A stretch of DNA of 64,000 nt from contig CM038923.1 in assembly GCA_021904315.1 (NCBI GenBank), positions 19,598,038 to 19,662,037 of the forward strand, written 5' to 3'. Numbering within the stretch: position 1 is the first letter of the stretch; every line of letters starts with the position of its first letter. Below are positions 332 through 52,417 of this stretch, one piece after another. A model generated the notes under the pieces. It was given only the letters and a program-made list of their open reading frames with translations. It did not search any database and was not told the DNA's origin. This DNA is from Sphagnum magellanicum (lineage: Eukaryota; Streptophyta; Sphagnopsida; Sphagnales; Sphagnaceae). The translations under genes were made by a program, and so were the position numbers.

Positions 332-455
332 TTAATCTCGGATATCAAACATCCCCCTAAACTTTTCACAATTTGTCGTACAAGAGTCTTTAAGTGCGTC
401 CTTACACCCGTCCAAAATCAACTCTCTGAAGGTGGTCAGGACCTCCAAAGAAAGA

Positions 456-680
456 GGCAAGCTTCCAAGAGATTTACAATAACTCAGATCTAGTGTTCGC
501 AATTTAGGGAAAGCACGTTTAGCCACTTCTGGAAAGCTTCCAAGAGATCCACAACACCTCAGATCTAGTGTTCGCAATTTAGGGAAAGCACCTTTAGCCA
601 CTTCTGGAAAGCTTCCAAGAGATCCACAACAACTCAGATCTAGTGTTTGCAATTTAGGGAAAGCACCTTTAGCCACTTCT
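456..680 (-). repeat. Three tandem 75-bp LRR units
   Basis: Three near-identical 75-bp units (456-530, 531-605, 606-680) encode 25-residue leucine-rich repeats with the core FPKLRTLDL and a CCGSLGSFPEVAK link. HNL copies B and C have one such unit at the same place (VDEGALPKLR), so this is a recent expansion limited to copy A. It keeps the reading frame. Confidence 0.85.
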
Positions 681-1374
681 GGAAATTTAACCACACCCGA
701 ACATATTTCGAACTCTAAAAGAGCTGGAAAAGCCTGGGGAGATGTGAAGGATGTTGGAAGATATTCCAATCCCTCGCAAATTAAATGAAGTTCTTGAAGT
801 TGTACGAACACTTCTGGCATCTTAGCTGGCAGGGTTTTGACACTCATAAGCTCTAACTCTAGAACCTCAAGCTTTGTAAGTGCAAATATCTTGTGAGGCA
901 GCTCCACCAGTGCAAATGAGAAGACTTGTGAGAGCAACCAACCCATATATGTCGTCCAGGGAAGCTCCCATGCCAGGATCATGACCCAAACATTCTGTTC
1001 TTGCAATCCCTTATGGTATCATTTTCATGCCCATATGTTCAGCCCATCTCAAGCTGCCACAACTAGATGTGTCTAATACTTGCAGTGATCTGAGGCAAAC
1101 CACTCCAGAAGGGAGATACTTCAACTTTAGACAGTAAGCTAGAAGCAGGCGTTTCAACACATGTAGTTTCTCTACTGCCTCTGGTAATTCCTCTAGATTA
1201 CCACAAGAAGTGAGCTCAAGACAAACCAAATGATTAAGATCACCAAGTTCCTCAGGTAGCTTCCGAAACCGTCCTTTGCTTAGATCCAGAACCCTTAGTT
1301 TTGGAATGTGGCTCAAGAAACTTGCTGGTAAAGAGACTATTGGATTTCCACCAAGTAGTAGAGACAGCAATTCA

Positions 1375-1506
1375 GGTGCATAAAGTATCTCAGGGAGACT
1401 CTTCAACTTGTTCATGTGCAATGATAGTCTCCGAGCTTTAGGTGCATAAAATATCTCAGGGAGACTCTCCAACTTGTTCATGTGCAATGATAGTCTCCGA
1501 GCTTTA
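1375..1506 (-). repeat. Two tandem 66-bp LRR units
   Basis: Units 1375-1440 and 1441-1506 are near-identical and encode a 22-residue repeat containing ARRLSLHMNKL and SLPEI. Copies B and C have a single unit here (for example KLSLERNKLKRLPRRF in B). This is a second independent in-frame LRR duplication in copy A. Confidence 0.85.
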
Positions 1507-3670
1507 GAAGGTCGCATCGATGTTGCTTTCCAATCTTGGGGGAAGGCTTCCAAATTTTGACCTACTCGATAAAGATAATCCCATTTTGCAGGGGGTTTGC
1601 CGTTTTCTACTATGTAGAAAACCAAGTCTCTCATCACATCATGTATCTTGAATGTCAGAAAATCCTCTTCATCCAACACAACCCCTTCATCTGACTCAAT
1701 GAATGATCGCTCCCACAACTTCTTTAACAAAGAAAATGCATCCACTCTAGGATCATCTCCACCATTTCCGGGAACCAACCCCTCCCCTATCCAATGCCAC
1801 AAAATGTCTTTAAAGTAAATCTCCTCATCTTCAGGAAATGCTGCAAAGAAAAGAAAACAGTCCTCCAAGTGCCAATCCTCCTCAGACAGAAGATCATAGC
1901 CAAGCTTCAAACGCTTATACAACTCCTCTCCAACAGTCCTCTCTTGCACGCATGATTCCCTTAGCTTCTTCAGTTCTGGCTCCCATTGAAGTTCAGGTGA
2001 GGTCCTTCCAAACATTGCTCTGCCTATAACCTTGAGAGCTAACGGAAGACATTGGCACTCCTTGGCCATGCACATTGCCAGTGCCTCTAATTCACATGGA
2101 ACATTGGATGGTGGTCTAAATGCATGCACACAAAAAAGGCTCCAACTATCCTCCTCTGAAAGAGTGGTCATCTGCTCTTGCCTTATATGTGGACTTGCTC
2201 TTTCCAATGAAGACTGGTTTCTAGTGGTCAACAATGTGACACCATCACCCTTGGCTAAGTCAAGTGAATCAAACACTTTGCCTTCCCAAACATCATCCAA
2301 AACCAGGAACACTCTTTTCTGTTCAAACTGAGTTTGTAAATAGCACTTCTAATCCTCTGGATTTGCATACAATTCTGGGTTGAGATGCAGTTTTTTACTT
2401 AGGGTCTGATATAGAGCCATTATGTCAGGCATTAGCCCCACAGTGAGCCAAATGAACTCTGCTCCTTGAAAATGGCCTTGTACCTCTGGCCTCCCATATT
2501 GTGTTTGAAGTAGAAGAGTTTTCCCAACTCCGCCCATGCCCCATATTCCCACATACTAATAGCAACGAGCTGGATCACTTCCTTTTGAGGTCACCAATGT
2601 TTCTACCCTCTCCACGTAGCTCTCCAGACCAAACATTGATTGAGGCAAGTCATGAACCTCTTGTAAAGCTTGATCACATTCTCTTGCCACCTTCAGATTC
2701 AACACATGACTATCAAAAGGTTAGTCCATTTGTTGCTTATAGAAAAAATATCAATACATCATCACTGACTTAAGGTGAATACTCTATACAAGGAAATTTG
2801 CATGGGGCAATCGCTTTGCACATTCATAATTCATCAAAATCTCAAGCAAGCTCGCTTACCTCCCAATAGAAAAATTTAACTGTATTTTACAGTGTAGGTA
2901 ATGCTTCAGTGTTAATGAAATATGGAACTAACTAGGTTATTGAAACTCACCTTTCCACGAGTAATGATAAATTGTAGAAGCAACCCATAGCTGGGATGTT
3001 CTTTACTTGGAGGCTTGCACACCTCCATGTGATCGGCATCCTCAACCTTGTAAGAATTATCTCCTGCTGATCGTTGCGCTGAGCTAAAATCTACCAAAAT
3101 TCCCTAGTCCACTCATAGAACCCAAATTGCACATGTCAGCACCAAACAACATCAAAGCATCATCGGTGTTTGGTTGCAAAAAATCCATTTCATCCAACAC
3201 ATACGTACCACTTGCTCCATTGGCCTGCCCTCACAAAAAGCATATATAATGATTTCGTTTTCAGTGACAGTGCGATCAAAATCCACTGATAACTGTTCCA
3301 TATCTCGTTGGCAGGGTCGAATGTTATCCATTATTCCAGGATGATGTCTGTTGTTGCATCTCAACAACTTGTTCACATATTTAGGAATATTGCTTGATCC
3401 AGCATGTGGAACAGCATAGAAAGCCACCACTCATTTCTCTTTTTGAAGTCAAGTGCACGTTTTGTGTTCCAAACTGACAGTTCCATCTTGATGACTTAGT
3501 GACCTGCCTACAGATAAACCAGGAATGAAACAACCCTCCAGGCAAATGGTGGGTGGGTCCTAGTTGGCCTTTTCACTATTCACTGAATCCTTGACCTCAT
3601 GGATTAAGATAGTCATGGGACATTATTGTTCTCTTGGCACAGGGAATCAATCATCTTCTTGGTAGACCTT

Positions 3671-3895
3671 TCAGTAATAGGAGAATGCTAGCTGCCTTAT
3701 TGTGGAGATGGGGTGGCGTGTTGAAGTATTTTCATCATCTGGACACCCATTGGACATGTGCCAATCATGGCGTTCCAAGTGACCACATCTTGAGATACCA
3801 TCTTGTTGAAGAATCTCCAAGCATCCTCCAAAATTCCCACATTCTGCATACATGTCAACCAAACTACTGCCCAGCAAGGCACCTAAATTTCACTT
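3671..3895 (-). pseudogene. Isolated PPR fragment
   Basis: Minus-strand pieces in two frames (LVDMYAECGNFGG; ILEDAWRFFNKMVSQDVVTWNAMIGT) are one PPR repeat broken by a frame change. The fragment matches right-locus bases 47,135-47,335, where it directly follows the remains of the DYW-region sequence. Here it lies 4 kb beyond the DYW end of the left gene. It has no start and no further repeats, so it is a relic. Confidence 0.75.
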
Positions 3896-5879
3896 GGCTG
3901 AAATAGTAGTTAGTGAACTCATTTCACTTTTAAAACATTGTTGTGAAATTGGTTAGGGAACTAGACCCATGTTTCTTGGTAGTGGTGGGACACTACATAT
4001 GTGTAAAATGTAACACAAGGGATTTTAAAAAAAAGACTTTGTAATCCAAAAAACAATTTTATTTTCATAAAAAGGGAGTGGTCAAGAATATAAAAAACCT
4101 GGATTACAAAAAAAGTATACAAGAACAAGGGTGTACATGGAGATACAAGTAATGTTCATGCTCACGTGACAACTTGCATTTGTCACCTTTCAACAATAAT
4201 TTGTACAAACCATCAATAGAAGAATTTTAAACATGCACAAGAGGTGGACGAAGATTTTTTTTTTCCTCGTACAAAGATAATATGCTTTTCATTGAATAAT
4301 GTTCTTTTCTTTTTATTTTTAGTGTACAAAAAGTCCCTTCAAATCTTTGATACATTTCCTTTCTCAATGAGTTATTATCTTATTTCTATTAATGTAGTAA
4401 AAGTGTCTTATTTTCCTTTCTTTTTTCACATTGAACAAGATACTAACAAGTTCAAATGTCCAATCTTAATTTTACAAACCATACCTAACATTGGGTAATT
4501 GGATAAGCATAAGGTTTAAATTTACATAGCTATGATAGATTTTAAAGGGAGACAAAAAAATGTCCTTGTAAAATTGGAATTGAAAACATAAAGACATGAA
4601 ATTTCAAACATCCTATGAATAAAATCAACATAATATAATAGAATCAATTTCAATAGTGTTAAAAATGTATTATCAAGTGAGGCATTCTTATAATGACATA
4701 TTCCAAGATCATTTGGTAAGAGCATTTTCCAAGGTAATTAGCATAATGTATAATAAAATATCAAAAAAAAATTCAATTGTTGGTCACTATAATTTGCACA
4801 AATTCATCATAACCATAGGCATTGCAAAATGTGGAAATACATGTATGTTATATAATGATTTTGGCATATACCCTTTGTTAATTACCCTCCATTCAGGAAG
4901 GATAAATTGAACAACTATATGTAGCCAAGTAAAATATAGACATGGAAAATATTTACCAATATTAGATATGAAATTAAAAGGGAATAAAAAAATTACCATT
5001 TGGGTAAGGTATATCAAAAACATATTTAACTTTTTATATGCCCATGGGCATATCAATGTAATTATAAGTTTTACCCATCAAACAATAGAATAAACCATGC
5101 TTAGTATTGGCTGGTTGACAATTCCCACTTTTTGGGTCATGCATTTAACAAAACATAATAATGATAGGTAAATCAACATTAATGTTTTAACCTTGCAAGC
5201 TAATGTGTGAATAAATTCTTTTGTTTTGGTTGAAAATGTTTTCATCATTCTTAAAATTTCCACCAATAAACACCTCAAGCCCAATAAGGTGAAATGTCAT
5301 TATGTCATGTGATAATGGGTTTTACAAGGGTTTATTTTAAAATGTAATTGGTGTTCCCCACCATTGATGCCCATCGCAAGTGGATCTAGCATAACAAAAA
5401 GCATAACTAATAGTTATCCCATGGTCAATCTAGGAAAAAACCTTAAAAGGTACTTGAGTAGGACACTAAAATTTCTTCCATGCAAAAATCTTACTAAATC
5501 ATTTATTTTATTTTATTTTTGTTGAATACTTGCCTTGTTGTATTGATCTATTACAAGTGTTTTATCTTCCTTTCTTTTATAAATTGAACAAAAGTTCCAC
5601 AAAGTTTCAATTGTTGAACTTTACTTCAACAAACTGTGCCTAATATTGTTTCATTACCACCCAACATTGATCTTGCCATAATCTAGAGGATTCTCTTTGA
5701 TGTTGGTTGTTTTACAATCTTGTAATGTACGAATGCCTTCAAGTTTCCATTGACAATTATTCATGTTCAGTTCAACATAATTAACTGATGGATTAACATG
5801 AATGTGGGCAACACACATATAATAACATTTTAATAAAGTTGAACCTTTTACAAACTTATGGTTTTTTTTGTAATGGGGC
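3896..5879. other. AT-rich spacer, no gene seen
   Basis: Lies between the loose PPR fragment and the P450 remnant. The few open stretches have no recognisable protein and AT-driven composition. I see no terminal repeats that would mark it as one transposon. The right PPR locus has no counterpart. Confidence 0.4.
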
Positions 5880-7977: not shown

Positions 7978-10653
7978 TCACCAGTAGTCCATGCAAAGAA
8001 CAAATACCATTTTCAAAGTGATGAAAGCAATTGGCATCCCTCACCATGATTGCTCTCCCCACTATTTTTGAGATGAACTTTGTGGAAGTGTGGCAATATT
8101 CACAAACTCACAGGTTTTTTCTTATTCAGAGAGGGCTACCAGGAGTTGTGTTGATGAGCCCAAATACAATGGCCAGTTTCTCACTATGGTGACACAAATG
8201 AAATGCCTTTTCTTCTACTTCCACATCATGCAGAACAAATTTCATAGAAGGCACATACCCTGCATCATGCATAAGCCCTGACAATCTCTGGAGTTCTGCA
8301 TGAATTTCAATCATCAGAGGGTGGTCTTGATCATCTACTACAAATGTATGCACCTCATTATTCACTTCAATCCAGGTGCGACTCGCTGCCTCTTCACACC
8401 TCTTGCTGTCCTCTGCTGTTCAACATTCTCACGGAGATGCCTGTTACCAGCAGCAACATAGATGTTTGACAGCACCACGTAACCAGCAGCATTGTCAGGC
8501 TCCATTTCAAGACTTCATTTGGCAATATATTCTGCCATCTCCACATTACCATGAATTCTGGAAGTGCAAAGCAAAGCCATGCATGTAGCTACATGCGGTT
8601 TCCAGGGCATTCCCATGACCATATTCTCTACCTCCTGTAGATCGTCAGCACGGCCAAGAAGGTCAACAATGCAGGTGTAATGTTCAAATTTTGGAGAAAT
8701 CATATAGTCTCTGACCATTGAAGCATAAAAGCGCATGCCTTCATCGACCAGACCTGCATGGCTACAAGCTCAGAAGACAAATAAAAGTGATATAATTTGG
8801 CTGTACACCTTCTTCACACATCTGTTCAAAATATTTAAGAGCTTCCTTACCATGCCCATGCATGGCACATCCTCCAGGTATGGTGCTCCAAGTTACCACA
8901 ATTCGAAATGGCATCTTATTGAACACTCTCCAAGCATCGTCCATGCTCCCACCCTTTGCATACATGTCCACCAAACTACTCCCCACAAAGACATCCAGCT
9001 CCAAACCACTTTGAACAACTTCCTGATGAACACACCTGCCCTCTTCAAGGGCAAGTACACTGAAGTAACAGAGTTTGGATCGACACCCTCCTGTTTCATT
9101 TCTTGAAATAGTCCCAGTGCCTTCTGCCCTTGGCCACATTGCATGTGTCCCAATATCATGGCGGTCCATGTGACCACATTTTGAGCTGGCATCTTGTTGA
9201 ACACACTCCAAGCATCCTCCAGGGTTCCACACTTTGCATACATGCCCACCAAACTACTCTCCACAAAGACATCGGACTCCAAACCACGTTGAATGATTTG
9301 CTGATGAATACACCTGCCCTCTTCAAGGGCAAGTACACTGGCGCATGCATTCAGTGCCCCCACAAAAGTACCGGAGTTTGGTCGCACGCCCTCCTGTTGC
9401 ATAAGTTGAAATAGTTCCAATGCATTCTGCCCTTCCCTGCATTGCACATGTCCCAATATCTGGCAGTCCAACTGACCACATCTTGAGATGGCATCTCTTC
9501 GAACACATTACCAGCATCTTCAATGCTCCCACACTTTGCATACATGTCCACCAAGCTGCTCCCCACAAAGACATCAGACTCCAAACCACTTCGAATGATC
9601 TGCTGATGAACACACCTGCCCTCTTCAGTCACAGCCACACTGGCACATGCTTTCAATACCCCCACAAAAGTAACAGAGTGAGGTCGCACACCCTTCTGTT
9701 GCATTTGTTGAAATAGTTCCAGTGCCTTCTGCCCTTGCCCACATTTCACATGTCCCAATACCATAGCATTCCAAGTGACCACATTTCAAGATGGCATCTT
9801 GTTGAACACTCTCCAAGCATCTTCAATGCTCCCACATTTTGCATACATGTCAACCACCAAGCTATTGCACACAAAGACATCGGATTTGTAACCACTTTGA
9901 ATGAGCTGTTTATGAACAAGTCTCCCATCTTCAAGTCTTCCTAAACCAGCACTTGCCTTAATCACCTGAACAAAAGTGAATTTGTCAGGACTCATTCCTT
10001 CTTGTTGCATTTGTTGGAAAAGCTGCATCGCCTTCTCCAGTTGCCCATCCTTCACATGTTTTGTAAGCTTCTGATTCCATGCAAAAATGTTCAATTGCAC
10101 TGTGCCTGGTGCCATTGCAGGCATCTCTGCTGCCACCCATGCTTGGTTTCGTCTGTCCTCAATCCAGAGTGCTTCCCCTGTCTTCTTGTGTTTGAAATCT
10201 GGGTACCTTTCATTGTCTACAACCAGAAATCCAGGTCAAGTTGATCAGCCACGTATTCTCCACATCCTGGCATAATTGGTATCATAATAACAGAGAAATA
10301 CACACTGACCTTCTCCATTTTCATATTTCATTTACTTACCTTCTCCAGCAGACTGATACTAGGCCACCAGTGCAAAGGACCTGAAAAGAATTTCTGCCAG
10401 GTTTAGAGCACGGCAGGATTGCAACAACCAACAGAGAGCAACAAGATTGACACCAACTAGAGCTATGGCTCCATTCACCTGTGAACTCTGACAGGAGTGA
10501 TGTTCAGTTACCTTCTCTGGTCTGTGGTCTCACCAGTGCGAAGGATCCACAAAGACCCCCGCCACAGTTTCTCTGCGTGACCTCCAGGGACTGCAGAAAA
10601 ACTTCCTTCCAAGTCATGCACTTTGATCACATAGAAGTCACGATGAGGTCGTA
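7978..10653 (-). pseudogene. PDF-motif/PPR/DYW pseudogene, left copy (first exon lost)
   Basis: Relic of an organelle RNA-editing-type PPR gene. Minus-strand order: an exon with a VHDLEGSFSAVPGG stretch (10,653-10,512, ending at donor GTAACT); a 54-bp exon KFFSGPLHWWPSISLLEK (10,393-10,340); a long exon from 10,266 with the OSB-like DFKHKKTGEALWIED region, PLS-type PPR repeats (LVDMYAKCGSIEDAW, NVVTWNAMVLGH), an E-type segment (MPWKPHVATCMALL) and a DYW domain. The DYW domain shows HSEKLAIVFGLINT (the HxE motif), then TGA at 8,126-8,128 and at 8,108-8,110, CEYCH (CxxC zinc ligands), and FHHFENGIC. A 1-base gain near 7,995 shifts the final CMDYW and its stop (7,978-7,980). Other breaks include TGA at 9,786 and several frame changes near 8,740, 8,890 and 9,470. 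The first exon present in the right copy is absent. Not functional. Confidence 0.85.
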
Positions 10654-15213: not shown

Positions 15214-16112
15214 TTAAGTAATATGGAAATGTTTAAGCTTGTCATGGTTGATCCTACCATACTTCTCCCCGTGAAGATGAGCTAATTCATATGTGTTGTT
15301 GTCAAAAAAGACCTTCATGACCATGTATGGGCCAAACCGTTTTGGAAGGAACTTTTTGAAGGTCCTCCTATCATGGTGGCTGTCATACACCATAACCAAA
15401 TCGCCCTCTTGGAACTTCCTTGGCCTCACCCTCTTGTCAAAAAATATCTTTTGATAAACTTGGGCTAATTTGATAGCTTGTTGTGTTCGCAATTGGCTTT
15501 CTTCCAACTCCACCAATTCCAACAATCTTTTCTTTTGTGATTTTCCTACTCCCAATTGATGTCGTTTTGTTGTGCGAAATGTCATTACTTCATTCTCAAT
15601 GGGCAATGCTGATTCCATCCCATATGTAAGACGAAAAGAGGTGAAGCCAATGGACGACTTGAACGTGGAATTATACACCCATAATGCATGGTGTACTTGC
15701 TTATCCCAATTATGTAAGTTCTTGTGTACCTCAACTTCTTTACTCAGGATGTTGCACACTACTTTGTTTGTGTGTTCCACCAACCCATTGGTGTTAGGCT
15801 TATAAATGGTGGTTACTCTATGTTTGATGAACAACTTTTTCATCAATTTTTCAATGACCTCATTAATGAATCACAATCCATTGTCTGAAATCATCTCGAG
15901 AGGTATCCCAAAACATGTCACAATCCTCTTGTAAACAAACCTTGCCACTTCTTACTTTTTACATGTTTTTAAAGGTCTTACTTCAGCCCATTTTGTGAGG
16001 TAAATTGTTGCCACCACCAAGAATATGTTGGCCTGTGGGGTGACAGGAAGAGGCCCCATTAAGTTAATACCTCATTTTTCAAATGCTCCCAAAGGTGGAA
16101 TTGGCTGTAAAG
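15214..16112 (-). pseudogene. Gypsy integrase, catalytic core and C-terminal part
   Basis: Minus strand. From 16,112 the frame reads QPIPPLGAFEK and GPLPVTPQANIFLVVATIY (the start of the integrase core with the first catalytic Asp region decayed), then TIYKPNTNGLVEHTNKVV with the third catalytic acidic residue in the usual NG.VE context. After that come GFTSFRLTYGMESALPIE and a C-terminal GDLVMVYDSHHDRR module ending KLKHFHIT at 15,217. The last 210 codons are open, while stop codons break the upstream part. It continues the zinc-binding half found at 19,631 and above. Confidence 0.85.
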
Positions 16113-36681: not shown

Positions 36682-39600
36682 CTAGAAGAGTCTTAAAACT
36701 TTGCTGTCATAAATCAAGTTCCTCAAGCTGGTCAGTACCTTCAAAGAGAAAGGCAAGGTTCCAAGAGCACAGTCATCAAACTGTAGTGTTCGCAATTTAG
36801 GCAGAGCACCTTCATCCACTTCTGGAAATTCAACAAGATTCCAACAGCAACTTATTCGAAACTTTATAAGAGCTGGAAAAGCACCAGAACATGTGAAGGA
36901 TCTTGGAAGATATTCCAAACTTTGCAAGCCAAATAAATGAAGTTCTTGAAGTTGTATGAAACAATATGGCATCTCAGCTGGCAGGGTTTTGACGTTCTCA
37001 AGCCGTAACTCTAAAAACTTAAGCTTTGTAAGTGCAGATATATTGTGAGGCAGCTCCACCACTGTTTTTCCAGAAAGTCTAAGCTTTGTGAGAACACCCA
37101 ACCCACATATGTCTTCCAACGAAGCTCCAACAGTTGGATATACATGACACAAAGATTCTGCTGTTGCCATGCCTAATGGTGTATGTTCAGCCCATGTCAA
37201 GTTCTTACAGCCTAATGTGCATAATACTTGCAATGATGTGAGGCCAACCACTCCAGAAGGGAGATACTTCAATGTCTGGCAATCACATAGATCCAGGCAT
37301 TTCAACACATGTAGTTTCCTTACTGCATCTGGTAAAATCTCTAGATTATCACAACCAGAGAGGTTAAGCCAAACCAAATCCTTAAGATCACCAAGTTCCT
37401 CAGGTAGATTCTGAAACGCTCCTCCACATAGATCCAGAACCCTTAGTTTTCCAAAGCTCGACAAGAAACTTCCTGGTAAAGAGACTATTGGATTTCCACA
37501 AAGTACTAGAGACAGCAAGTCAGGTGCACAAAACCTCCTAGGGAGTCTCTTCAACTTGTTCCTCTCCAATGAAAGTTTCTGAGCTTTCAATATTACTTCC
37601 CACTCTTGCGGGAATTCTTCCAAACTTTGACCTGCTCGATAAAGATAAAGCTGTTTTGCAGGGGGTGTGCCACTATCATTTTCCAGTATGTAGAAAGCCA
37701 AATCTCTCATCACATCATGTAACTTGAACCACAGAAAATCCTCTTCATCTGAGATCTTTACATTTGACTCAATGAATGATCGCCTCCACAACTTATTTAA
37801 CAAGCAAAATGCATCCGCTCTAGGATCATCTCCACCATTTCCAGGAACCAACCCCTGCCCTATCCAACCCCACAAAATCTCATCAAAGTAAATCCTCGAA
37901 TCTTCAGGAAATGCTGCAAAGTAAAGAAAACAATCCTTCAAGCGCCCATCATCCTCAGATAGGAGATCATAGCCAAGCTTCAAATGCTCATACAACTGCT
38001 CTTCAACAGTCCTCTCTTGCATGCGTGATTCCCTTAGCTTCTTCAGTAATGGCTCCCATTGAAGTTCAGGTGAGGTCTTCCCAAACATTGCTCTGCCTAT
38101 AACCTTCAGAGCTAATGGAAGACCTTGGCACTCTTTAGCCATGGACTGTGCCAATGCCTTTAATTCACATGGAACATTGGATGGTGGTCTGAATGCATGC
38201 ACACAAAACAGGCTCCAACTATCCTCCTTTGAAAGTGGAGTCATATGCTCTTGGCTTATCTGTGGACTTGCTCTTTCCAATAAAGAGAGGTTTCTAGTAG
38301 TCAACAATGTGACACTTCCTTTTCCCTTGGCTAAGTCAAGTGAATCAAATGCTTTGTCTTGCCAAACATCATCCAAAACCAGGAACACTCTTTTCCGTCT
38401 AAACTGAGAGTGTAATTTGAGCTTGTAATCCTCTGGGTTCGCAGTCTTCTCTGGTTCGAAACCCAGTTCTGCACTGAGGGTCCGATATAGAGCCATTATG
38501 TCAGGAGTTTGCCCCACAGTGCACCAAATGAACTTGGCTCCTTGAAAATGGCCATGTACCTTTGGGCTCCCATACACTCTTTGAAGAAGAAGAGTTTTCC
38601 CAACTCCACCCATGCCCCATACTCCCACATATTGAGGAGCTGCATCACTTCCTTCTGAGGTCACCAATGTTTCTACCCTCCCCACATAGCTCTCTAGACC
38701 AAACATTGATTGAGGCAAGTCATGAACCTCTTGTAAAGCCTGATCACACTCTCTTGCCACCTTCAAATTCACCATACAACTACCAAAACGTTAGGCCACT
38801 TGTCATACATAGAAAAAATATTACTACATCATCACTCACTTAACATGAATACCCTATCCCGGGAAATTTGCATGGGGCAATCACTTTGCACATTCGTAAT
38901 TCATCAAATCTCAAGCAAGCTCGGTTACCTCCTAATAGAAAAATTTAACTGTATTTTACAGTGTAGGTAATGTTTCAATGTTAATGAAATATGGAACTAA
39001 CTAGGTTATTGAAATTCACCTTTCCACAAGTAATGATAAATTGTAGAAGCAACCCATAGCTGGGATGTTCTTTACTTGGAGGCTTGCACACCTCCATGTG
39101 ATTGGCATCCTCAACCTTGTAAGAATTATCTCCTGCTGATCGTTGTGCCGAGCTAAAATCCACCAAAATTCCCTAGTCCACTCATAGAACCCAAATTGTA
39201 CATGTCAGCCCCAAACAACCTCAAATCATCACGGTTGTTTGGTTGCAAAAAATCCATTTCATCCAACACATACATACCACTTGCTCCATTGGCCTGCCCT
39301 CACAAAAAGCATATATAATGATTTCGTTTTTAGTGACAATGCCATCAAACTCCACTGATAACTCTTCCATATCTCGTTGCCAGGGTTGAATGTTATCCAT
39401 TATTCCATGGTGATGTCTGTTTTTGCATCTCAACAACTTGTTAACATATTCAGCAATATTGCTTGATCCAGCATGTGGAACAGCATAGAAGGCCACACCC
39501 CTCACATTACTCAAAAACACTTTCGCACACTGCACTGTAGCTTTGGACCATGAATCAGTAGCATTTTTGATGGCTAATCTCCTCTTCAATTTTACAACCA

Positions 39601-40695
39601 AGCTCTTCAACACCAACCCTCCAAAACTGTGCCCTATTAACACGATAGGATGATGCCATTCATACCTGCACAAAACATATTCATTCCCTATGCTGATTTT
39701 TCAGGGAATATTTAATTGACTTCTACATTTCATATTAGTTAAGTCTATATTTATGTGTGACTGAAATATATCTTGGGAGTGCACACCTCTGACATTATGC
39801 AAAAAATCCGTTCCACACTCCTGCACTGCAGCTCTTCTCATGGTATTTTCAGAATTTAGAAAGTCAAAGCCCTTTCCACTTTCAAAACCAAGCTTTTTAA
39901 TACCAATCTTTAAAAACATAGGGAATTTTCACAAATAAGGATGATTCCATTCAACCTCCACAATACATTACTGTGCTATGTTCATTTTTCAGGAAACATT
40001 GCAACACCATCTATAATTGGCTGTTATAGTACCACGGATAAGCATACAGATTTTCTATACAATTGAGAGATGACCAAATGGTTGGGTTACAAATCTTATA
40101 TCTGAAAATTTTAGTTGCTTGATATATTTGTGAGTGAAACCACTACATTTGCCCAAGCATGCCATTTTGACATTGAAAGAGAGGTGACTTCGTACCTAGG
40201 ATTCATGAGATTCTGGAATAGGTTATGTGCAATCTCTGACACGTGATCATGAGGGGAGGTTACTACATGTGCATTGTATGATACAGAAAAAATGCGCACA
40301 GCTTCCCCCAAATCAAACGGCAGCCATTCTTGAGGCCAACATACATCATCATGACCTCGTTGCATCCATGTGCTACTCCAGGCATCACTAGTGTCATTTG
40401 TAGTTAATTGGAGCCCATGGAACAACACCACATCCAATTCAGTCCTTTGCTTGCCTCCAGAAGGCGGCCATAGCTGATGCACTGGCCAATCACTCTGCCA
40501 CCAAAATTCCACATTCAAAACATTGTGCAATAACCAAAATCCAGTAAGCATCTGAAATTGCTGAGAGGACAGGCCACCAATTGATTTATGAACGTAATAG
40601 AATGGGCAATTCGAACCAAAACACTTGGAAATAAATTAGTACCACAGACTGGACCAATTTGCAAGGTGAAAGGAACTCACAGAACTAGCGGCCAT
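36682..40695 (-). CDS. HNL copy B: alpha/beta-hydrolase-NB-ARC-LRR immune receptor
   Basis: Intracellular NLR receptor of the hydrolase class. Five coding exons join with matching phase: 40,695-40,681 (MAASS, donor GTGAGT), 40,494-40,196, 39,665-39,278 (donor GTATGT), 39,172-39,020, and 38,760-36,682. This gives about 977 residues. Hydrolase (about 20-285): oxyanion HG 31-32, nucleophile elbow GHSFGG 116-121 (Ser118), acidic candidates Glu227/Asp239, His259 in ANHMEVCKP. NB-ARC: P-loop GMGGVGKT about 334-341, kinase-2 LVLDDVW 412-418, GLPLAL 498-503, LHDV about 632 in place of MHDV. LRRs run from about 670 to the end. All exons are open. The last acceptor is inferred from phase. Start: the same ATG exon recurs in copy C, and the hydrolase frame upstream of the second exon is closed by a stop in C, so translation must enter from this small exon. 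The predicted role is effector sensing through NB-ARC switching; whether the hydrolase is enzymatically active is unknown. Confidence 0.9.
39780..39958 (-). pseudogene. Decayed duplicate of hydrolase exon 3 inside an HNL B intron
   Basis: In the intron between the second and third coding exons, minus-strand sequence aligns to the third exon. GTTGAATGGAATCATCC parallels GTATGAATGGCATCATCC; then come GGTATTAAAAAGCTTGG (GLVLKSL position) and GCAGTGCAGGAGTGTGG, then a DFLHNVRGV segment parallel to FLSNVRGV. The GHSFGG motif has decayed. The same relic is present in copy C (51,500-51,663), so it predates the B/C duplication. Confidence 0.7.
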
Positions 40696-42430
40696 GATGA
40701 TCAAGATGGCTTATCATAGTCATACATAAATGCATGATATGGTAACACTCATAGATACCATGTGCCTTGGTGGTGTCATTAACTGGTAGACTGTCATTCA
40801 ACTTTATTTTTAAGAGCTGAGAGCAATCCAAAAATCCTCACTGCTTGTGTAAGTGGTTCTTGTAACATATAAGAGGAGGGGTGTTGCTCTAAAGAACTAA
40901 TGGCTTTTCATTCTTCATTCAATTGATAGGTGAAAAACAGCAGGTTGGGAGCTGCCATACAAATGGCGGTGTTGCTCTCAAGCATCCATTTTCCTTTCAT
41001 TCACACAAGGGGAGAAAATCCCGGACAAACTTGTGCAGTTACAAATATCATACCCTGTCGCACATTGTTGAACTCTTCTCTCAACTCCTAATCAGACAAT
41101 AGAGTGTCAATTTGAAGCCTCTGTCACCTAGCCACAGATACACATATACAGTACCACTCTAAAAGTCAGACTACACATTATTTGGAAATGCCTGAAGGGT
41201 GAGAAAACAATACATAATATTTTGTTCAGCACCCCAAAATGTTGCATCATCAGGAACAATATCTGAAATTCCTGAGTCTGGAAGCACCATAAGAAGGAAT
41301 GCCCATTAACAAATGACACGCTGAAAACTTGCTATTGAATTTCAACAAGATCATAATCTCTTCAAAAAGAAACTCATATGCTTAGTACCTCAAAAATTGG
41401 GCGCATAGAGGGAGGTTCAATCCTGCTCATGCAAACGCAATCTGTCGAAGACAAGCCTTCAAATAGTTCAAGGTCCTTGAGCAACAACAGGTAGCACTCC
41501 CTCGTTCTGGAATGCGAGTTCAGGAACTCTCAAAACTAAACTTCAAGTGACATTGGAGAGCAATTTTCTGAACTGATCCACCAGATTCCAAGTGTTTAGC
41601 AAACAATCAATGCACAACCAACAAGAAAACATGACGGTAGGAGTCCATCTAGCACAATATCACCAATTGTGGTTTTGTAGATGCCCTAGAAAATGAAGTT
41701 GCTTGCAAGCTGGTAGCATACCAGAGAGATGGTCATCGGCTGCCAGAGTGCAGACTCCGGAGTAGTCAGAGTCGAAAACTAATAGCAAACCTTCAAAACA
41801 CCGAGAGTTGGGAGCTATCGAGCGGTACTGAAAACTATCGAACTTAGCAATACACCTACCATGTGATTTTCCCGTGGATGTTCCCCTTCCAGAAATTACG
41901 ACACAACACCGAGACACACATGACTGATCTTCTGTACTCTCCACACCACATTGAACAGTACAGTTCAGTGAAGCCGCATGAAGCTCGACCACTGGTTCTA
42001 TTATAACCTCCCAGGGGAAACACTGGTCCAAAGAAGCAAGACACACGGGACCTCTTCAAACTTCAACAAACCCCCAACCTATGTGAATTGTACACGGAGG
42101 TTTACAATATGCAACAGCAATCGTCACATCTCCGAAACAAGCTCCATATCCTGTAGGAGAATCCAGCGCGAAAAAGGAATTGACAGACAGTGGCCGGAGC
42201 GAAGAAAAATGTCGGAAGAGAGAAGAGAAACCAAAAGTTCTACAAGTTGCAGGTACGCTAGTACCGAGACGGAAAGCAATTGCTTGCTGCGCAAGGCTGA
42301 AAGCTGCATCCAAAAGTCACCTCTTGGGGAGGTGGAAAACGCAGTCAGCTCTTCGAGACGCCACATTTCTCCTTCCTTCCGTCTCTTGCCGCGTCCTGCG
42401 TAGCCGTGGTTTTATTTTTTTGAAATTTCT
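40696..42430 (-). promoter_or_regulatory. 5' leader and probable promoter region of HNL copy B
   Basis: Minus strand, upstream of the ATG exon. It is strongly similar to 52,418-54,290 upstream of copy C. A GC-richer block (42,400-41,861) ends at a consensus donor GTAGGT after TCACATG in B and at the equivalent place in C (53,781), so it is probably a non-coding leader exon spliced toward the ATG exon. No in-frame ATG is conserved in it apart from short frames. An AATAAAA-like word near 42,410 could be a TATA element. I could not fix the acceptor of the ATG exon or the transcription start. Confidence 0.5.
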
Positions 42431-42639
42431 AAACTGGAAAATGTGGCGATAAAATTAGTCGAAATTGCTATAGGAAAACACAAATTTCCCAATTTTTTTT
42501 GTTAAAAAGGGTAAATTTTGTCAAAAACAAAACACTGCTGCTTACTGCAGAGGTAGTCTTCCTGGCTACGGCGCTGTAAGGTTCGCAATTGTGTATTTTT
42601 TTTCAATTTTCTGATGTCAAAAATTTAGCAAACTTTTCC

Positions 42640-43074: not shown

Positions 43075-46000
43075 ACAAATACAGCCTTGAAGAGGCCTTA
43101 CTCAGGGAGATGTACATTTAAGCTAGGCACGCTTTGGTACCAGCTCAAACATTTTGAGTTGCCCATAGCATTTCAAGTGTGCACAAGCAACAGTTGAAAT
43201 GCCATAGAAAGTATGTGTTGCTGGCTGAAACCAAAGCACCAGTCAGTCACTGGAGATTACCAACAGGTTCAATTTAAAACCAATTTTCACCTTCAAACCC
43301 ACTATTGCTAAATCTATTTCACTCTGTGGACTGCCAAAATAAGCTTCACGCTGCCCAGAATGTTTTTAATTTCTGGGCTGTCCAAGTCCCATTTTTTCTG
43401 GTCTGATGAAACTTCTGCCCCACAAAATCAGACTGCCCTTGAATATTTTTTTAATTCATAGGCTGCCTACACTTTCCCCCCCCCCGCACTTTCCTTGTCT
43501 CTTTCTTTTAAACACATTTTAATCAACACATTAATGTTTTAAATGTGCAATAACATTTCAACTGTTACAATGGAGACATTGGATGGCTTCAAATCCACAT
43601 CATTCATTAAAATGGTTATTGCAACCTTCTGGTGCAACACCACCAACATACTTATTGCAAAATCCACAATGAAGCAATCTCATCCACCATCTTCTGTCCA
43701 AGTAACCTCCCAACCTGGTTGTCAATTCGCCCTGGCCATAAATTTTTACTTTTTTTTTCCTTGAAAAAATAGTTTCCACATATGCAAAGGATTTCTGTAC
43801 AACAAACCAAACGCCATAATTCATCAGATTTCAAAGAAAAAAAATTTTAATTGCCATATCTATACATACCGTTCGAGTAGGGTTCCCAAATTTATAAGGA
43901 TCCTTGAAATTTTTTTTACTTTCATCCCGAGTCCATAGCCAGATTTGGCTAAACCTTCTTGTGGATGATCACCAGTTTGGCTACACCACACAATTGGAAA
44001 AAGAAAACCCCGGTGCTCCTGGCCTCATCGATTTACGGCAATTGCATGCGGACTGACGACATCAATTCTTCCACCAAGAAATCCACAAGCGGTCATGGTG
44101 CGAGCGAGATTGGACTCGAATGAACTTCAGACCCTCCAGAGCGAATTGCATTTCGGTCTCCTTGGGATACTCTTGGATTGTGAGGAGCGAGAGAGAGAGA
44201 GAAATTGCCAAGGGTTTTTTGAGAAGCAGCCATGTCTTCCTCATCATCTATTCAGCAAGTTCAATGTCCATGTGCAACATCTAACTCTTTCCCAGGCGAG
44301 AAAAGCACCAGCAGCACCTCCACCACCGCATGGAGAAGAGAGAGTTCAACCAGGAGGAGCTTGCTGCTCCGTGTCTGTGTGCACCGTCAATCCCAATTGA
44401 CCCATCAACAACTTTTGCAGTACGCCGGATTTCTTCCCAGCGTGCACCGAATAGAAACAGAGGCGGCAATCAGAGCTCCCGGCCAATGTAAGCTTTCTTG
44501 CGTTGTTCCTCTCTCAGCGTGTGTCTACTGTCTGCCTCTCGTGGTTTGTTTGCCGAAAACTGTTGATCCGGAAGCGAATCGAAAGATTGCACACGTTGTA
44601 TGCGAGATGCAGTACGACCTCATCGTGACTTCGATGTCATCAAAGTGCATGACTGGGAAGGAAGTTTTTCTGCAGTCCCTGGAGGTCACACAGAGAAACT
44701 GTGGCGGGAGTTCTTTGTGGATCCTTCGCATTGGTGGGACCACAGACCAGAGAAGGCAACTGAACATCACTCCTGTCAGAGTTCACATGTCAATGGAGCC
44801 ATAGCTCTAGTTGGTGTCAATCTTGTTGCTCTCTGTTGGTTGTTGCAATCCTTCCCTGGTCTAAACTTGGCAGAAATTCTTTTGAGGTCCTTTGCACTGG
44901 TGGGCTAGTATCAGTCTGCTGGAGAAGGTAAGTAAATGAAATATGAAGATGGAGAAGGTCAGTGTGACTTTCTCTGGTATTATGATACCAATTATGCCAG
45001 GATGTGGAGAATACATGGCTGATCAGCTTGACCTGGATTTCTGGTTGTGGACAAATGAAAGGTACCCCAGATTTCAAACACAAGAAGACCGGGGAAGCAC
45101 TCTGGATTGAGGACAGACGAAACCCAGCATGGGTGGCAGCAGAGATGGCTGCAATGGCACTAGGCACAGTGCAATTGACCATTTTTGCATGGAATCAGAA
45201 GCTTACAAAACATGTGAAGGATGGGCAACTGGAGAAGGCAATGCAGCTTCTCCAACAAATGCAACAAGAAGGAACAAGTCCTGACACATTCACTTTTGTT
45301 CAGGTGATTAAGGCATGTGCTGGTTTAGGAAGACTTGAAGATGGGAGACTTGTTCATAAACAGCTCATTCAAAGTGGTTACAAGTCCGATGTCTTTGTGT
45401 GCAATAGCTTGGTGGACATCTATACAAAATGTGGGAGCATTGAGGAAGCTTGGACAGTGTTTGAGAAGATGCCATCTCAAAATGTTGTCACTTGGACCAC
45501 CATCATATTGGGACATGTGCAATGTCAGCAAGGGTATTGAAAGCATGTGCCAGTAGGGCTGCGATTGAAGAGGGCAGGTGTGTTCATCAGCAGATCATGC
45601 AAAGTGGTTTGGAGTCTGATGTCTTTGTGGGGAGCAGCTTAGTGGACATGTATGCAAAGTCTGGGAGCATTGAGGATGCTGGTAATGTGTTCAAGAAGAT
45701 GTCATCTCAAGATGTGGTTAGTTAGACTGTCATGATATTGGGACACGTGCAATGCAGGGAAGGGCAGAAGGCATTTGAACTATTTCAACAAATGCAATAG
45801 GAGGGTGTGCAACCAGACTCTGTTACTTTTGTGGGGGTGCTGAATGCATGTGCCAGTGTACTTGCCTTTGAAAAGGGCAGCTGTGTTCAACAGCAAATCA
45901 TTGAACATGGTTTGGAGCCTAATGTCTTTGTGTGGAGTAGTTTGGTGGACATGTATGCAAAGTGTGGGAGCCTGGAGGATGCTTGGAGTGTGTTGAAGAA

Positions 46001-47587
46001 GATGCCATCTCGAAATGTGGTCACTTGGAGCACCATGATATTGGGACATGTTAAATGTGGGCAAGGGCAGAAGGAACTTGGACAATTTCAACATGTGCAA
46101 CAGGAAGGTGTGCAACCAGACTCTGTTACTTTGGTGGGGGTGCTGAAAGCATGTCCCAGCATGGTTGCAATTGAAGAGGGTAGGTGTGTTCATCGGGACA
46201 TTATTCAAAGCGGATTGGAATCTGATGTCTTTGTGGGGAGTAGCTTAGTTAACATGTATGCAAAGTGTTGGAGCATAGAGGATGCTTGGAGGGTGTTCAA
46301 CAAATGCCATCCCGAACTGTGGTCACTGGGAATGCCATACTTGGAGGATGTGCCATGAATGGGCATGGTAAGGAAGCTCTTAAATATTTTGAACAGATGT
46401 GCGCAGAAGGTGTACAGCCAGATGATACCACTTTTATTTGTCTTCTGTCAGCTTGTCACCATGCATGTTTGGTTGATGAAGGCATGCACTGTTACACTTC
46501 AATGGTCACCGACTGTGTGATTTCTGCAAAGTTGCAACATTACACCTGCATGGTCGACCATGCTGGTCATGTACAGGAGGTAGAGAATATGGTCATGGCA
46601 ATGCCCTGGAAACCGCATGTGGCTGCATGGATGGCTTTACTTGGTGCTTCCAGAATTCATGGTAATGTGGACATGGCAGAACGTGTTGCCAGACGAATTC
46701 TTGAAATGGAAACTGACAATGCTGCTCATTACGGGGTGCCGTCAAACATCTCTGCTGCTGCTGGCAACCGGCATCTCTGTGAGAATGTTAAATGTTAGAG
46801 AGAGGAAAAAGGTGGGATGAAATAGCCGGGTCACACCTGGATTGAAGTGAACAATGAGGTGCATACGTTTGTAGTAAAGGATCAAGGCACTGCCAGATTA
46901 TTGAATTCATGCAGATTTGCAGAGGTTGTCAGGGCTCATGCACGATGTGGGGTATGTGCCTTGTACAAGATTCATTCTGCATGTTGTGGAAGAAGAAGAA
47001 TTGGTGTTTCAGTTGTGTCACCATAGTGACCATTTTGTGGGATTGGTGAATACATGTGCCAATGTCGCTGCACTTGAAGTGGGCAGGTGGGCTCATTATC
47101 GGATCATTCAATGTGGATGGGATTTAGGTGCCTTATTGTGCAGTAGTTTGGTTGACATGTATGCAGAATGTGGGAATTTTGGAGGATGCTTGGAGATTCT
47201 TCAACAAGATGGCATCTCAAGATGTGGTCACTTGGAACCCCATGATTGGCACATGTCCAATGGGTGTCCAGATGATGAAAATGCTTCAACATGCCACCCC
47301 ATCTACACAATTAGGCAGCTAGCATTCTCCTATTACTGAAAGGTGTACCGAGAACATGATTGATTCCCTGTGTCAAGAGAACAATAATGTCCCATGACTA
47401 TCTTAATCCATGAGGTCAAGGATTCAATGAATAGTGAAAAGCCAACTTGGACCCGTCCCCCATTTGCTTGGAGGGTTGTTCCATTCCTGGTTTATCTGTA
47501 GGCAGGTCGCTAAGTCATCAAGATGAAAGTGTCAGTTCGGAACACAAAACCTGCACTTGACTTCAAATTGAGAAACAACAGAATGAG
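43075..47587 (+). repeat. PPR locus segmental copy (right copy)
   Basis: Reverse-complement counterpart of 3,428-11,525. It ends with gaatgag at 47,587, the same word at which the left copy meets truncated HNL A. It contains the PPR pseudogene with first exon and its upstream region. Confidence 0.8.
44232..47339 (+). pseudogene. PDF-motif/PPR pseudogene, right copy (DYW domain lost)
   Basis: Plus strand. Exon 1 (44,232-44,487) encodes a Ser/Thr/Arg-rich start (MSSSSSIQQV...) like an organelle transit peptide, donor GTAAGC. Exon 2 (44,613-44,755) joins in phase and reads VHDWEGSFSAVPGG, then KLWREFFVDPSHWWDHRPEK. Exon 3 (44,874-44,927) reads KFF.GPLHWW. Exon 4 starts at 45,001 and contains PDFKHKKTGEALWIEDRRNP followed by about nine PPR repeats and an E-type segment (MPWKPHVAAWMALLGASRIHG). 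FFxDPxxWW plus PDFKHKxTGEALW is the PDF motif of plant OSB single-stranded-DNA-binding proteins. Breaks: exon 2 donor is GC (left copy GT), TGA in exon 3, frame change near 45,540, TAG near 45,723 and 45,798, frame change near 46,300, TAG near 46,796. After the E-type segment and a HHS remnant, the frame passes directly into another PPR unit, so the DYW domain is missing. Confidence 0.85.
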
Positions 47588-48414: not shown

Positions 48415-51400
48415 CTACAAGAGTCTTTTAAGTGTTGTTTTCTCACAGAAAGACAAATCCAAGTTCCTCAAGCTGGTCAGGACTTCCAAAGAGAGAGGCA
48501 AGCTTCCAAGAGAGTTACAATAACTGAAATCTAGTGATCGCAATTTAGGCAGAGCACCTTCATCCACTTCTGGAAATTCAACAAGGCTCACACACTCAAT
48601 TGAAACTTTATAAGAGCTGGAAAAGCGCCACGACATGTGAAGGACCTTGGAAGATATTCCAAACTTTCGCAACATAAATCAAGGTCTTGAAGTTGTATGA
48701 ACGCATGTGGCATCTCAGCTGGCAGGGTTTCAACATCCATAAGCCGTAACTGTAGAAACTTAAGCTTTGTAAGTGCACATATGTTGTGAGGCAGCTCCAC
48801 CCCTGGATCTGTTCTTCCAAAAATTTGAAGTTCTGTGAGAACAACCAACCCACATATGTCTTCCAACGAAGCTCTGATGGTTGGACCCAAGGACTCTGCT
48901 CTTGCCATGCCTGATGGTGTATGTTCAGCCCATTCCAAGCTCACACAAAATGATGCATCTAATACTTGCAATGATGTGAGGCCAACCACTCCAGAAGGAA
49001 GATACTTCAAGTCAATGCACCCATATAGCATCAGGAATTTCAATGCATGTAGTTTCCCTACTGTGTCTGGTAAAATCTGTAGATTATCACAATGAGACAG
49101 GTCAAGAGAAACCAAATGCTTTAGATTACCAAGTTCCTCAGGTAAACTGTAAAACTGTCCATGGCTTGGATCCAGAACCCTCAGTTTTGGAAGATTGCTC
49201 AAGAAACTTGCTGGTAAAGAGACTATTGGATTCCTACCAAGTAGTAGAGACACCAATTTAGGTGCACAAAAACTCTCAGGAAGTCTCTCCAACTTGTTCG
49301 TGTCCAATGATAGTCTCAGAGCTTCTGATATTGCTGTACACTCTTTGGGGACTTCTTCAAAATTTTGACCTGCTCGATAAAAATAAAGCTGTTTTGCAGG
49401 GGGTGTGCCACAATCCTTTTCCAGTATGTAGAAAGCCAAGTCTCTCATCACATCATGTGCCTTGAACCTCAGGGCATCCTCTAAAACAGAATCAATCTCT
49501 CCATGTGACTCAATGAATGATCGCTCCCACAACTTATTTAACAAGGAAAATGCATCTGCTCTAGGATCATTTCCATCATGTGCAGGAACTAACCCCTCCC
49601 CTATCCAATGAAACAAAACTCTATCAAACAAAATCTCATCATCTTCAGGAAATGCTGCAAAGTAGTGAAAACATTGCTTCAAGCGCCAATCATCCTCAGA
49701 CAGCAGATCATAGCCAAGCTTCAAACGCTCATACAACTCCTCTTCAACAGGCCTCTCTTGCATGCGTGATTCCCTTAGCTTCTTCAGTAGTGGTTCCCAT
49801 TCACATGAGGCCTTTCGAAACATTGCTCCACCTATGACCTTAAGAGCTAACGGAACACCTTGGCACTCCTCAGCCATGCACTGTGCCAATGCCTTTAATT
49901 CACAGGGAACATTGGATGGTGGTCTGAATGCATGCACACAAAAAAGGCTCCAACTATCCTCCTTTGAAAGAGGAGTCATATGCTCTTGCCTTATGTGTGG
50001 ACTTGCTCTTTTCAATAAAGACTGGTTTCTTGTGCTCAACAATGTGACACTTCCTTTTCCCTTGGCTAAGTCAAGTGAATCAAACGCCTTGTCTTTCCAA
50101 ACATCATCCAAAACCAGGAACACTCTTTTCCGTCTAAACTGAGAGTGTAATTTGAGCTTGTAATCCTCTGGGTTTGCATAAAATTCTGCGTCAAGATGCA
50201 GTATTTTACTTAGGGTCTGATATAGAGCCATTATGTCAGGCGTTTGCCCCACAGTGAGCCAAATGAACTTGGCTCCTTGAAAATGGCCTTGTACCTCTGG
50301 GCTCCCATACAGTGTTTGAAGAAGAAGAGTTTTCCCAACTCCACCCATGCCCCATACTCCGACATAGCAAGGAGCTGCATCACTTCCTTCTAAGGTCACC
50401 AATGTTTCTACCCTCTTCACATAGCTCTCCAGACCAAACATTGATTGAGGCAAGTCATGAACCTCTTGCAAAGCTTCATCACATTCTCTTGCCACCTTCA
50501 GATTCAACATACAACTATCAAAAGGTCAGTCCATTTGTCATTCATAGAAAAAATATTACTACATCATCCCTCACTGAAGGTGAATATACCAGGAAATTTG
50601 CACACGGCAGCCACTTTGCACATTCGTAATTCATCAAAGTCTCAAGCAAGCTCACTTACCTCCTTAACAGAAAAATTTAATTGTATTTTATAGAGTAGGT
50701 AATGCTTCAATGTTAATGAAATATCTAACTAAGTAGGTCATTGAAACTCACCTTTCCACAAGTAATGATAAATTGTAGAAGCAACCCATAGCTGGGATGT
50801 TCTTTACTTGGAGGCTTGCACACCTCCATGTGATTGGCATCCTCAACCATGTAGGAATGAGCTCTTGCTAACCATTGGGCAGAACTAAAATCCACCAAAA
50901 TTCCCTAGACTGGCCATAGAACCCAAATGACACATTTCAGCACCGAACAGCAAAGCATCACAGGTTGCAAAAAATTCATTTCATCCAACAAATATGTACC
51001 AGATGCTCCATTGGCCTGCCCTCACAAAAAGCATATATATTGACTTTGTTTTCATGGACAATGTGAACAAAATCCACTGATAACTGTTCCATATCTCGTT
51101 GCCAGGGTTGAATGTTATCCATTATTCCAGGATGATGTCTGTTGTTGCATCTCAACAACTTGTTCACATATTTAGCAATATTGCTTGCTCCAGCATGTGG
51201 AACAGCATAGAAAGCCACCCCTCTCACATTCCTCAAAAACACTTTCGCACATTGCACTGTAACTTTGGACCAGGAGTTGGTAGGATTTCGGATGGTTGAT
51301 GCCCTCTTCAATTTTACAACCAAGCTCTTCAACACCAACCCTCCGAAACTATGGCCTATTAACACAATAGGATGATACCATTCATACCTGCAAAAAACAT

Positions 51401-52417
51401 ATTCATTCGCTATGCTGATTTTTCAGGAAACATTTAATTGCCTTCTACATTTCATATTAGTGTTGTGTGACTGAAATATATCTTGGAGTGCACACCTCTG
51501 ACATTAATCAAAAAAACGGTTCCATGCTCCAGCACTGCAGCTCTCCTCAAGGCAATTTTCAAATTTTTTACTCCCTTTCCCACTTTCCAAACCAAGCTTT
51601 CTAACACCAATCTTTAAAAACATAGTGCATTTTAACATCTAAGGATGATTCCATTCACCCTGCAACATACGTTACTTTGCCATGTTCATTTTTCAGGAAG
51701 CGTTGAAACACCATCTAAAGTTGTCTGATATACAATCACTGATAAGCCTGATAAGCGTCCAGATTTTCTATACAAATTAGAGATGACCCTATGGTTGGGT
51801 TATAAATCTTATATCTGAAGAATTTGGTTGCTTTGTAAATTTGTAAGTGAAACCACTTCATTGGCCCAAGCATGGTATTTTGATAATCAAAGAGAGGTGG
51901 GTTGTACCTAGGATTGATGAGAGTCTGGAATAGGTTATCTGCAATCTCTGATACATGATCATGAGGGGAGGTTACTACATGTGCATTGTATGATACTGAG
52001 AAAATGCGCACAGCTTCCCCCAAATCAAAGGGAAGCCATTTTTGAGGCCAACATCATCATGCCCTCGTTGTGTCCATGTGCTACTCCAGGCATCACTAGT
52101 GTCATTTGCAGTTAATTGGAGCCCATGGAACAACACCACATCCAATTCAGTCCTTTGGTTGCCTTCAGGAGGCGGCCATAGCTGATGCACTGGCCAATCA
52201 CTCTGCTACCAAAATTCCACATTCAAAATATTGCACAGTAACCAAAGTCCAAATCACAGCACCAGTGAGTATCAAAAATTTGCTGAGAGGACAGGCCACC
52301 AATTCAATTATGAATGTAATAGAATGGGCAATTCAAATCAAAATGCTTGGAAATAAATTAGTATCACAGACTGGACCAATCTGCAAGGTGAAAGGAACTC
52401 ACAGAACTAGCAGCCAT
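48415..52417 (-). pseudogene. HNL copy C: hydrolase-NB-ARC-LRR receptor with two frameshifts
   Basis: Same exon plan as copy B: 52,417-52,403 (MAASS), 52,202-51,908, 51,387-51,000, 50,904-50,752, 50,495 down to 48,415. Exon sizes match B except that the second is 295 rather than 299 bp. A 4-bp deletion (B has ATAC near 40,342; absent near 52,055) shifts the frame after HDDV, about residue 56. A second 4-bp deletion near 48,590 ends the LRR early (LSV then stop at 48,588); the lost end (VEFPEVDEGALPKLR...) is readable in another frame to 48,415. Between these breaks the NB-ARC is open: GMGGVGKT, LVLDDVW, GVPLAL, and AHDV at the MHD position. GHSFGG and ANHMEVCKP are still encoded. The 640-codon NB-LRR exon begins MLNLKVA in frame, so a product without hydrolase from an internal start is conceivable but unproven. 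Confidence 0.85.
51500..51663 (-). pseudogene. Decayed duplicate of hydrolase exon 3 inside an HNL C intron
   Basis: Counterpart of 39,780-39,958. It has an acceptor-like TTGCAG followed by GGTGAATGGAATCATCC, then the GGTGTTAGAAAGCTTGG position and a NVRGV-coding end. The GHSFGG codons are replaced and stops occur, so it is dead in both copies. Confidence 0.7.

Follow-up and report, generated by a model that had tools for sequence, protein, structure and literature searches.

A hydrolase-NLR gene of Sphagnum magellanicum with a candidate five-codon start exon

Where does the coding sequence of HNL B begin, and does this gene encode an intact receptor? HNL B lies on the minus strand (positions 36682–40695) of a 64,000-nucleotide stretch of contig CM038923.1 from the moss Sphagnum magellanicum, which is referred to here as the window. 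By its predicted architecture, HNL B is a hydrolase-NLR, a nucleotide-binding leucine-rich repeat (LRR) receptor (NLR) in which an N-terminal alpha/beta hydrolase precedes an NB-ARC domain and C-terminal LRRs; this kind of receptor is uncommon but has been described before in mosses and liverworts. The best overall explanation of the locus, which we hold with moderate confidence, is that HNL B encodes a hydrolase-NLR of 977 residues that starts in an exon at 40695–40681 and triggers cell death through its enzyme. The five-codon exon itself, which encodes MAASS, is likely, but not established, as the start of the gene. Gene finders could miss a start in a 15-base exon, and HNL B and its kin may for that reason be absent from standard annotations; according to a study of internal microexons rather than start exons (PMC8831610), annotations often omit plant microexons of ≤15 nt. 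Hydrolase-NLRs are little understood, and a complete model with an intact triad provides a construct for enzyme and cell-death assays.

Gene model and domain architecture

The model consists of five exons, all on the minus strand. Exon 1, the best start candidate (40681–40695; 15 bases), ends at the donor GTGAGT and is separated by the phase-0 intron 1 (40495–40680; 39.8% T) from exon 2 (40196–40494; 299 bases), which encodes the start of the hydrolase with its FHGL loop and ends in phase 2. Ser118 and Glu227 of the hydrolase are encoded in exon 3 (39278–39665; 388 bases), and the end of the hydrolase with His259 in exon 4 (39020–39172; 153 bases), whereas exon 5 (36682–38760; 2,079 bases) encodes the NB-ARC, the winged helix, and the LRRs and contains the stop codon. 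When joined, the exons comprise 2,934 nt, a multiple of three, with a single, terminal stop. All four introns are of the GT..AG type, and their phases, calculated from cumulative lengths, are 0, 2, 0, and 0; the donors read, in order, GTGAGT, GTACGA, GTATGT, and GTGAAT, and the acceptors end in GGCAG, TGCAG, CTAG, and GAAG. Two introns, in phases 2 and 0, lie within the hydrolase region, and intron 4, in phase 0 after coding nucleotide 855, lies between the hydrolase and the NB-ARC. No intron follows the NB-ARC, because exon 5 extends from before that domain to the stop. The initial annotation had proposed these five exons, and every coordinate and phase, as well as the 977 residues, was reproduced on the sequence; Ser118 and His259, which it had named, were found at those positions within the motifs GHSFGG and DANHMEV. 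The acceptor of exon 5, AAG, is of a rarer type and counts against the model at that junction. An alternative acceptor at an upstream TAG was ruled out by its wrong phase.

A tblastn search of the window with HNL B located three copies of the gene, all on the minus strand: the truncated copy A (398–3427), HNL B, and copy C (48460–52417), a broken paralogue with all five exons. Of these, B is the only unbroken one. Just 5' of exon 5, an in-frame ATG occurs in both B (38775–38773; 697 amino acids) and C (50510–50508; 640 amino acids), and the reading frames from these ATGs correspond to NB-ARC–LRR proteins without the hydrolase, so a shorter transcript is possible.

The Pfam NB-ARC domain was detected at residues 326–549 (E = 4e-44) and is nearly full-length, spanning positions 17–246 of the 248 in the model, in agreement with the complete NB-ARC claimed in the initial annotation. 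WH_DRP (E = 1.6e-10) and LRR_14 (E = 1e-20) also exceeded their cut-offs. When the NB-ARC alone was compared with solved structures, 26 sequences were matched at E = 1e-6, and the resulting bit scores, which are a comparison of scores and not a tree, were 127 for MLA13, 118 for ZAR1, 112 for Sr35, and 98 for ADR1, compared with 64 for ROQ1 and 51 for RPP1. The scores of the coiled-coil (CC) types ranged from 74 to 127 bits and those of the RPW8 types from 63 to 98, and the TIR types were represented by ROQ1 and RPP1. Of the 15 rows above ROQ1, 14 are CC or RPW8 types, as we presume from their names, and one is unnamed. The kinase-2 motif of HNL B, LVLDDVW, has a final W, and a kinase-2 motif ending in W is the non-TIR form. 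The bit scores against solved structures suggest that the NB-ARC of HNL B is of the CC type rather than the TIR type. Two results weaken this assignment: At5g66900, an RPW8 type, scored 63 bits, just below ROQ1, and inclusion of the LRRs left the order at the top the same while narrowing the gap (MLA13, 149 bits; ROQ1, 115 bits).

The hydrolase matched a model in PADLOC, which collects models of known and candidate defence proteins: residues 45–298 matched PDLC02918 (DUF626_VIII) with E = 1e-10. A tblastn search of plasmids returned 10 matching records (best E = 1e-10), from which six bacterial relatives (L001–L006) were picked and aligned with HNL B. In this alignment, 28 columns were invariant in all seven sequences, including H31, G32, S118, E227, and H259. 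Because the last three of these residues never varied, we assign to the HNL B hydrolase a full predicted Ser118–Glu227–His259 triad, of which only two members had been named earlier. PDLC02918 also matched all five of the bacterial relatives scanned (L003 lay outside the scan), of which L002 and L005 are otherwise PD-Lambda-4_A. In L001, from the cyanobacterium Gloeothece (pP742402), the hydrolase, an NB-ARC (E = 6.8e-14), and WD40 are combined in one protein. L001, L002, and L005 share with HNL B a homologous N-terminal hydrolase and the triad, followed by NB-ARC in L001, but the proteins are only 25–27% identical to it, and no LRR was found in them; in Pfam, the AAA matches of L005 all lay below threshold, and no NTPase was matched in L002. 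The plasmid-borne relative L006 belongs to an ABC-three-component system. A pattern search of viral contigs for relatives gave no match, and one of genome contigs matched 25 stretches, none of which was confirmed.

Other searches with the hydrolase weigh against its assignment. In Pfam, the region produced only sub-threshold matches (PGAP1, E = 0.034; DUF676, E = 0.039; and Abhydrolase_6), and a sequence search of solved structures found no match to it; the NB-ARC region of L001, intended as a control for that search, also had no match and thus provided no control. NCBIfam returned one weak lipase match, far under the cut-off. This low similarity to characterised lipases would fit a domain that is not an enzyme but a lipid-binding or scaffold domain resembling EDS1, and lipid binding or an EDS1-like role has been raised as one option (PMC10952240). 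Ser118, Glu227, His259, and the HGL loop are nevertheless all retained, and we consider a non-enzymatic domain unlikely. Overall, the unbroken frame, the Pfam NB-ARC, the triad, and the PADLOC match support the earlier description of HNL B as an apparently intact hydrolase-NLR.

The start of the coding sequence

Within the 2.2 kb 5' of exon 2, each ATG with an in-phase GT no more than 150 nt downstream was counted as a start candidate. In B, 62 such ATG-to-phase-0-GT pairs were found, of which 27 were retained in C. A purine at −3 together with G at +4 makes a favourable start context, and among these 27 retained pairs only MAASS had both. In copy C, exon 1 occurs at 52417–52403; it differs by a single synonymous change and is followed by an identical donor, GTGAGT. 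An in-frame TAA lies 15 nt 5' of the exon 1 ATG (40711–40713, minus strand) and likewise in copy C, as read by eye and from the alignment, so extension of exon 1 to an earlier Met would need another splice. A strict pattern, consisting of RNNATGG, ≤33 open bases, and a phase-0 GTRAGT, occurred three times in 128 kb (both strands), namely at exon 1 of B, at exon 1 of C, and once elsewhere; in dinucleotide shuffles it appeared in 58 of 2,000 for the 2.2 kb upstream and in 7 of 2,000 for the nearest 500 nt, frequencies that are not clean probabilities because the pattern was defined after exon 1 had been seen. A T content as high as that of intron 1 was found in 0.3% of the 186-nt segments within 36682–42400 and in 6.5% of such segments when the entire minus strand of the window was taken, and the increase in T at the donor of exon 1 ranked 111th among 2,441 positions in B and 39th among 2,641 in C.

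Several results count against exon 1. Its donor score was −1.2, owing to the TCT on the exon side, and was exceeded by 22 of the 61 other ATG–donor pairs in B; we give this ranking little weight because the scores use a plant donor table that was not derived from S. magellanicum. Within 300 nt upstream of exon 1 there are 14 ATGs, 10 of them kept in C, with which a contiguous leader would probably be translated poorly, so that a nearby transcription start or a spliced leader would be needed. Conservation does not single out exon 1 either, because exon 1 is identical at 14 of 15 bases between B and C and intron 1 is nearly as conserved (90%). The 15-base start exon of the initial annotation therefore stood as the best candidate when its context plus donor, the upstream TAA, and the T-rich intron were taken together, but it proved not to be unique, and by donor score alone its rank was low. 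Initiation within exon 2 was rejected: the first in-frame Met there is residue 49, past the HGL loop, and copy C has Thr in its place (B, TWMQRG; C, TWTQRG).

The coding sequence might instead begin farther upstream, in a first exon ending at 41389 (MSRIEPPSMRPIFE; 41389–41430, minus strand; phase-0 donor GTACTA) or at 41054 (MCDR; 41054–41065, minus strand; phase-0 donor GTATGA, or GTATGC in C) and spliced to 40494, in which case the 15-base stretch would be intronic. Both donors outscore that of MAASS in the same donor table; in addition, the 41389 donor closes a 37-base run that is identical in B and C (41423–41387), and the GC content drops there from 49% to 34%, all of which speaks against MAASS. 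The start contexts are weaker, however, with T at −3 for 41430, A at −3 for 41065, and no G at +4 for either, and the 41389 donor reads GTCCTA in C. We judge such an upstream start to be rather improbable and prefer exon 1 at 40695–40681. The sequence concerned belongs to an upstream block common to B and C (40696–42600, minus strand), which we regard as a putative leader and promoter. Within it, 42400–41601 was 81–94% identical to the region upstream of copy C per 100-nt segment, which is approximately exon-level conservation, and its GC content was mostly 43–53%.

Paralogous copies and constraint

The alignment of B and C extended from approximately 42.6 kb of B to the end of the gene. Exon identities were 0.93, 0.94, 0.89, 0.93, and 0.86 for exons 1–5, respectively, and intron identities were 0.90, 0.85, 0.81, and 0.88 for introns 1–4. 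In copy C, four bases are deleted at each of two places, B codons 55 and 922, and a stop lies opposite B codon 969. The sequence of copy A starts midway through exon 3, at 3427, and its portion of exon 5 is interrupted by three stops; the 5' break of copy A adjoins 3430–3960 (minus strand), where a fragment resembling a pentatricopeptide repeat (PPR) protein (EDAWRFFNKMVSQDVVTWNAMIG) was seen by eye in broken frames.

The ratio of nonsynonymous to synonymous substitution (dN/dS) between B and C, with codons containing gaps or stops excluded, was 0.41 for the hydrolase (residues 6–285), 0.60 for the NB-ARC with the winged helix (286–660), and 1.07 for the LRRs (661–977); these values mix constraint and decay because copy C is itself broken. 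The LRR ratio near 1 and the two broken sister copies weigh against an intact, functional HNL B, and relaxed constraint on the gene is possible. Taken further, they would fit a gene that is silent or decaying like both its neighbours and is open merely because the loss is recent. However, HNL B retains 977 unbroken codons, the triad and the NB-ARC motifs are intact, and the ratio in the hydrolase is low, even with C broken, so silence or decay seems quite unlikely to us.

The initial annotation had also taken a TAG in copy C, on the intron side of exon 2, as independent support for the exon 2 acceptor. An in-frame TAG does lie two codons 5' of exon 2 in C (TAG-CAG|AGT), but it is weak support and no independent proof, because C is frameshifted approximately 150 nt into exon 2, so that the TAG could be a product of decay, and because B has no TAG at that site, where its frame stays open from an ATG at 40551. 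The TAG excludes unspliced read-through into exon 2 in C only. Translation of B without exon 1, from that ATG (40549–40551, minus strand; found in copy B only and continuous with exon 2) through 19 extra codons (MLTGFWLLHNVLNVEFWWQ followed by SDWPV) in an unspliced, longer exon 2, is in frame and open and to that extent competes with exon 1, but is very improbable given that, at this site, the ATG is replaced by ATA in C, which also has a 13-base insertion and the TAG, and that the stretch from 40551 to exon 2 is T-rich and intron-like. A B-specific acceptor just before 40551 was also considered and rejected, as it is lost in C.

Relationship to known receptors and proposed mode of action

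In Marchantia polymorpha, HNL proteins consist of a hydrolase, a nucleotide-binding site (NBS), and LRRs, and their genes have three conserved introns, two in phase 0 before the NBS and one behind it, as described by Xue et al. (2012; PMC3352924), who place one phase-0 hydrolase intron at a conserved position and the HNL class nearer to TNL and PNL. HNL B shares with the Marchantia HNL the order of domains and a phase-0 intron between the hydrolase and the NBS, but it differs in its phase-2 hydrolase intron, in the lack of an intron behind the NBS, and in the CC-type scores of its NB-ARC. Because of these differences in intron pattern and NB-ARC scores, we did not file HNL B in the Marchantia HNL class.

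The moss Hyd-NLRs of Chia et al. (2024; PMC11218826) resemble HNL B in having, by their description, an N-terminal alpha/beta hydrolase, an NB-ARC, and LRRs. That study reports that some Sphagnum hydrolase-NLRs form minor subclades within the CC/RPW8 clade, a hint of independent acquisition, and the NB-ARC scores of HNL B, which were obtained against solved structures and not from a tree, agree with such a branch. HNL B is perhaps a member of this minor moss branch inside the CC clade. The parts of PMC11218826 consulted make no mention of a start microexon in hydrolase-NLRs. A second origin of hydrolase-NLRs would fit the CC-type NB-ARC and the separate intron pattern, and we tentatively entertain, as somewhat more doubtful than probable, the idea that hydrolase-NLRs have two or more separate origins in bryophytes and that HNL B represents a CC-type receptor with its own introns and a five-codon start microexon, whose hydrolase was gained independently of the liverwort HNL. 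A moss CC-type receptor fits badly with a review according to which mosses lack canonical NLR genes (PMC11850516). Ferns are reported to be without the hydrolase-NLR type (PMC12512272).

Beyond plants, sesB-like lipase domains have been described as connecting fungal NLRs, SERAC1, and a bryophyte NLR (PMC4986451). The fungal sesB-like NB-ARC/NACHT receptors of that study are similar to HNL B in having a lipase-like N-terminal domain before a STAND NTPase, but they have TPR, ANK, or WD40 repeats where HNL B has LRRs.

If HNL B is expressed, as we infer, translation would start at 40695–40681, and splicing to exon 2 at 40494 would yield the 977-residue protein. This would consist of a serine hydrolase, which we call SERAC1/sesB-like from published descriptions, then a CC-type NB-ARC with the winged helix, and finally the LRRs. 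The LRRs would serve as the sensor and, together with the NB-ARC, keep the protein inactive; a signal from a pathogen would then lead to ATP binding, nucleotide exchange in the NB-ARC, and oligomerisation. Assembly may then cluster the hydrolases so that the Ser118–Glu227–His259 triad cleaves a lipid or other ester, resulting in a membrane change and local cell death. We propose this resistosome-like mode by analogy with resistosomes and on the basis of data from Marchantia, in which two M. polymorpha hydrolase domains caused cell death and ion leakage in Nicotiana benthamiana (PMC11218826).

Across the 64-kb window, scans for tRNAs and Rfam families gave neither a tRNA nor a match that reached the Rfam gathering score. 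PPR proteins are split across several frames at 8765–9471 (minus strand) and 45004–46795 (plus strand); both look broken, and one of them has a weak, sub-threshold E motif. At 15217–15846 (minus strand), sub-threshold matches to a Tf2-1-like SH3 domain and to an integrase core possibly mark the remnant of a Ty3-type retroelement.

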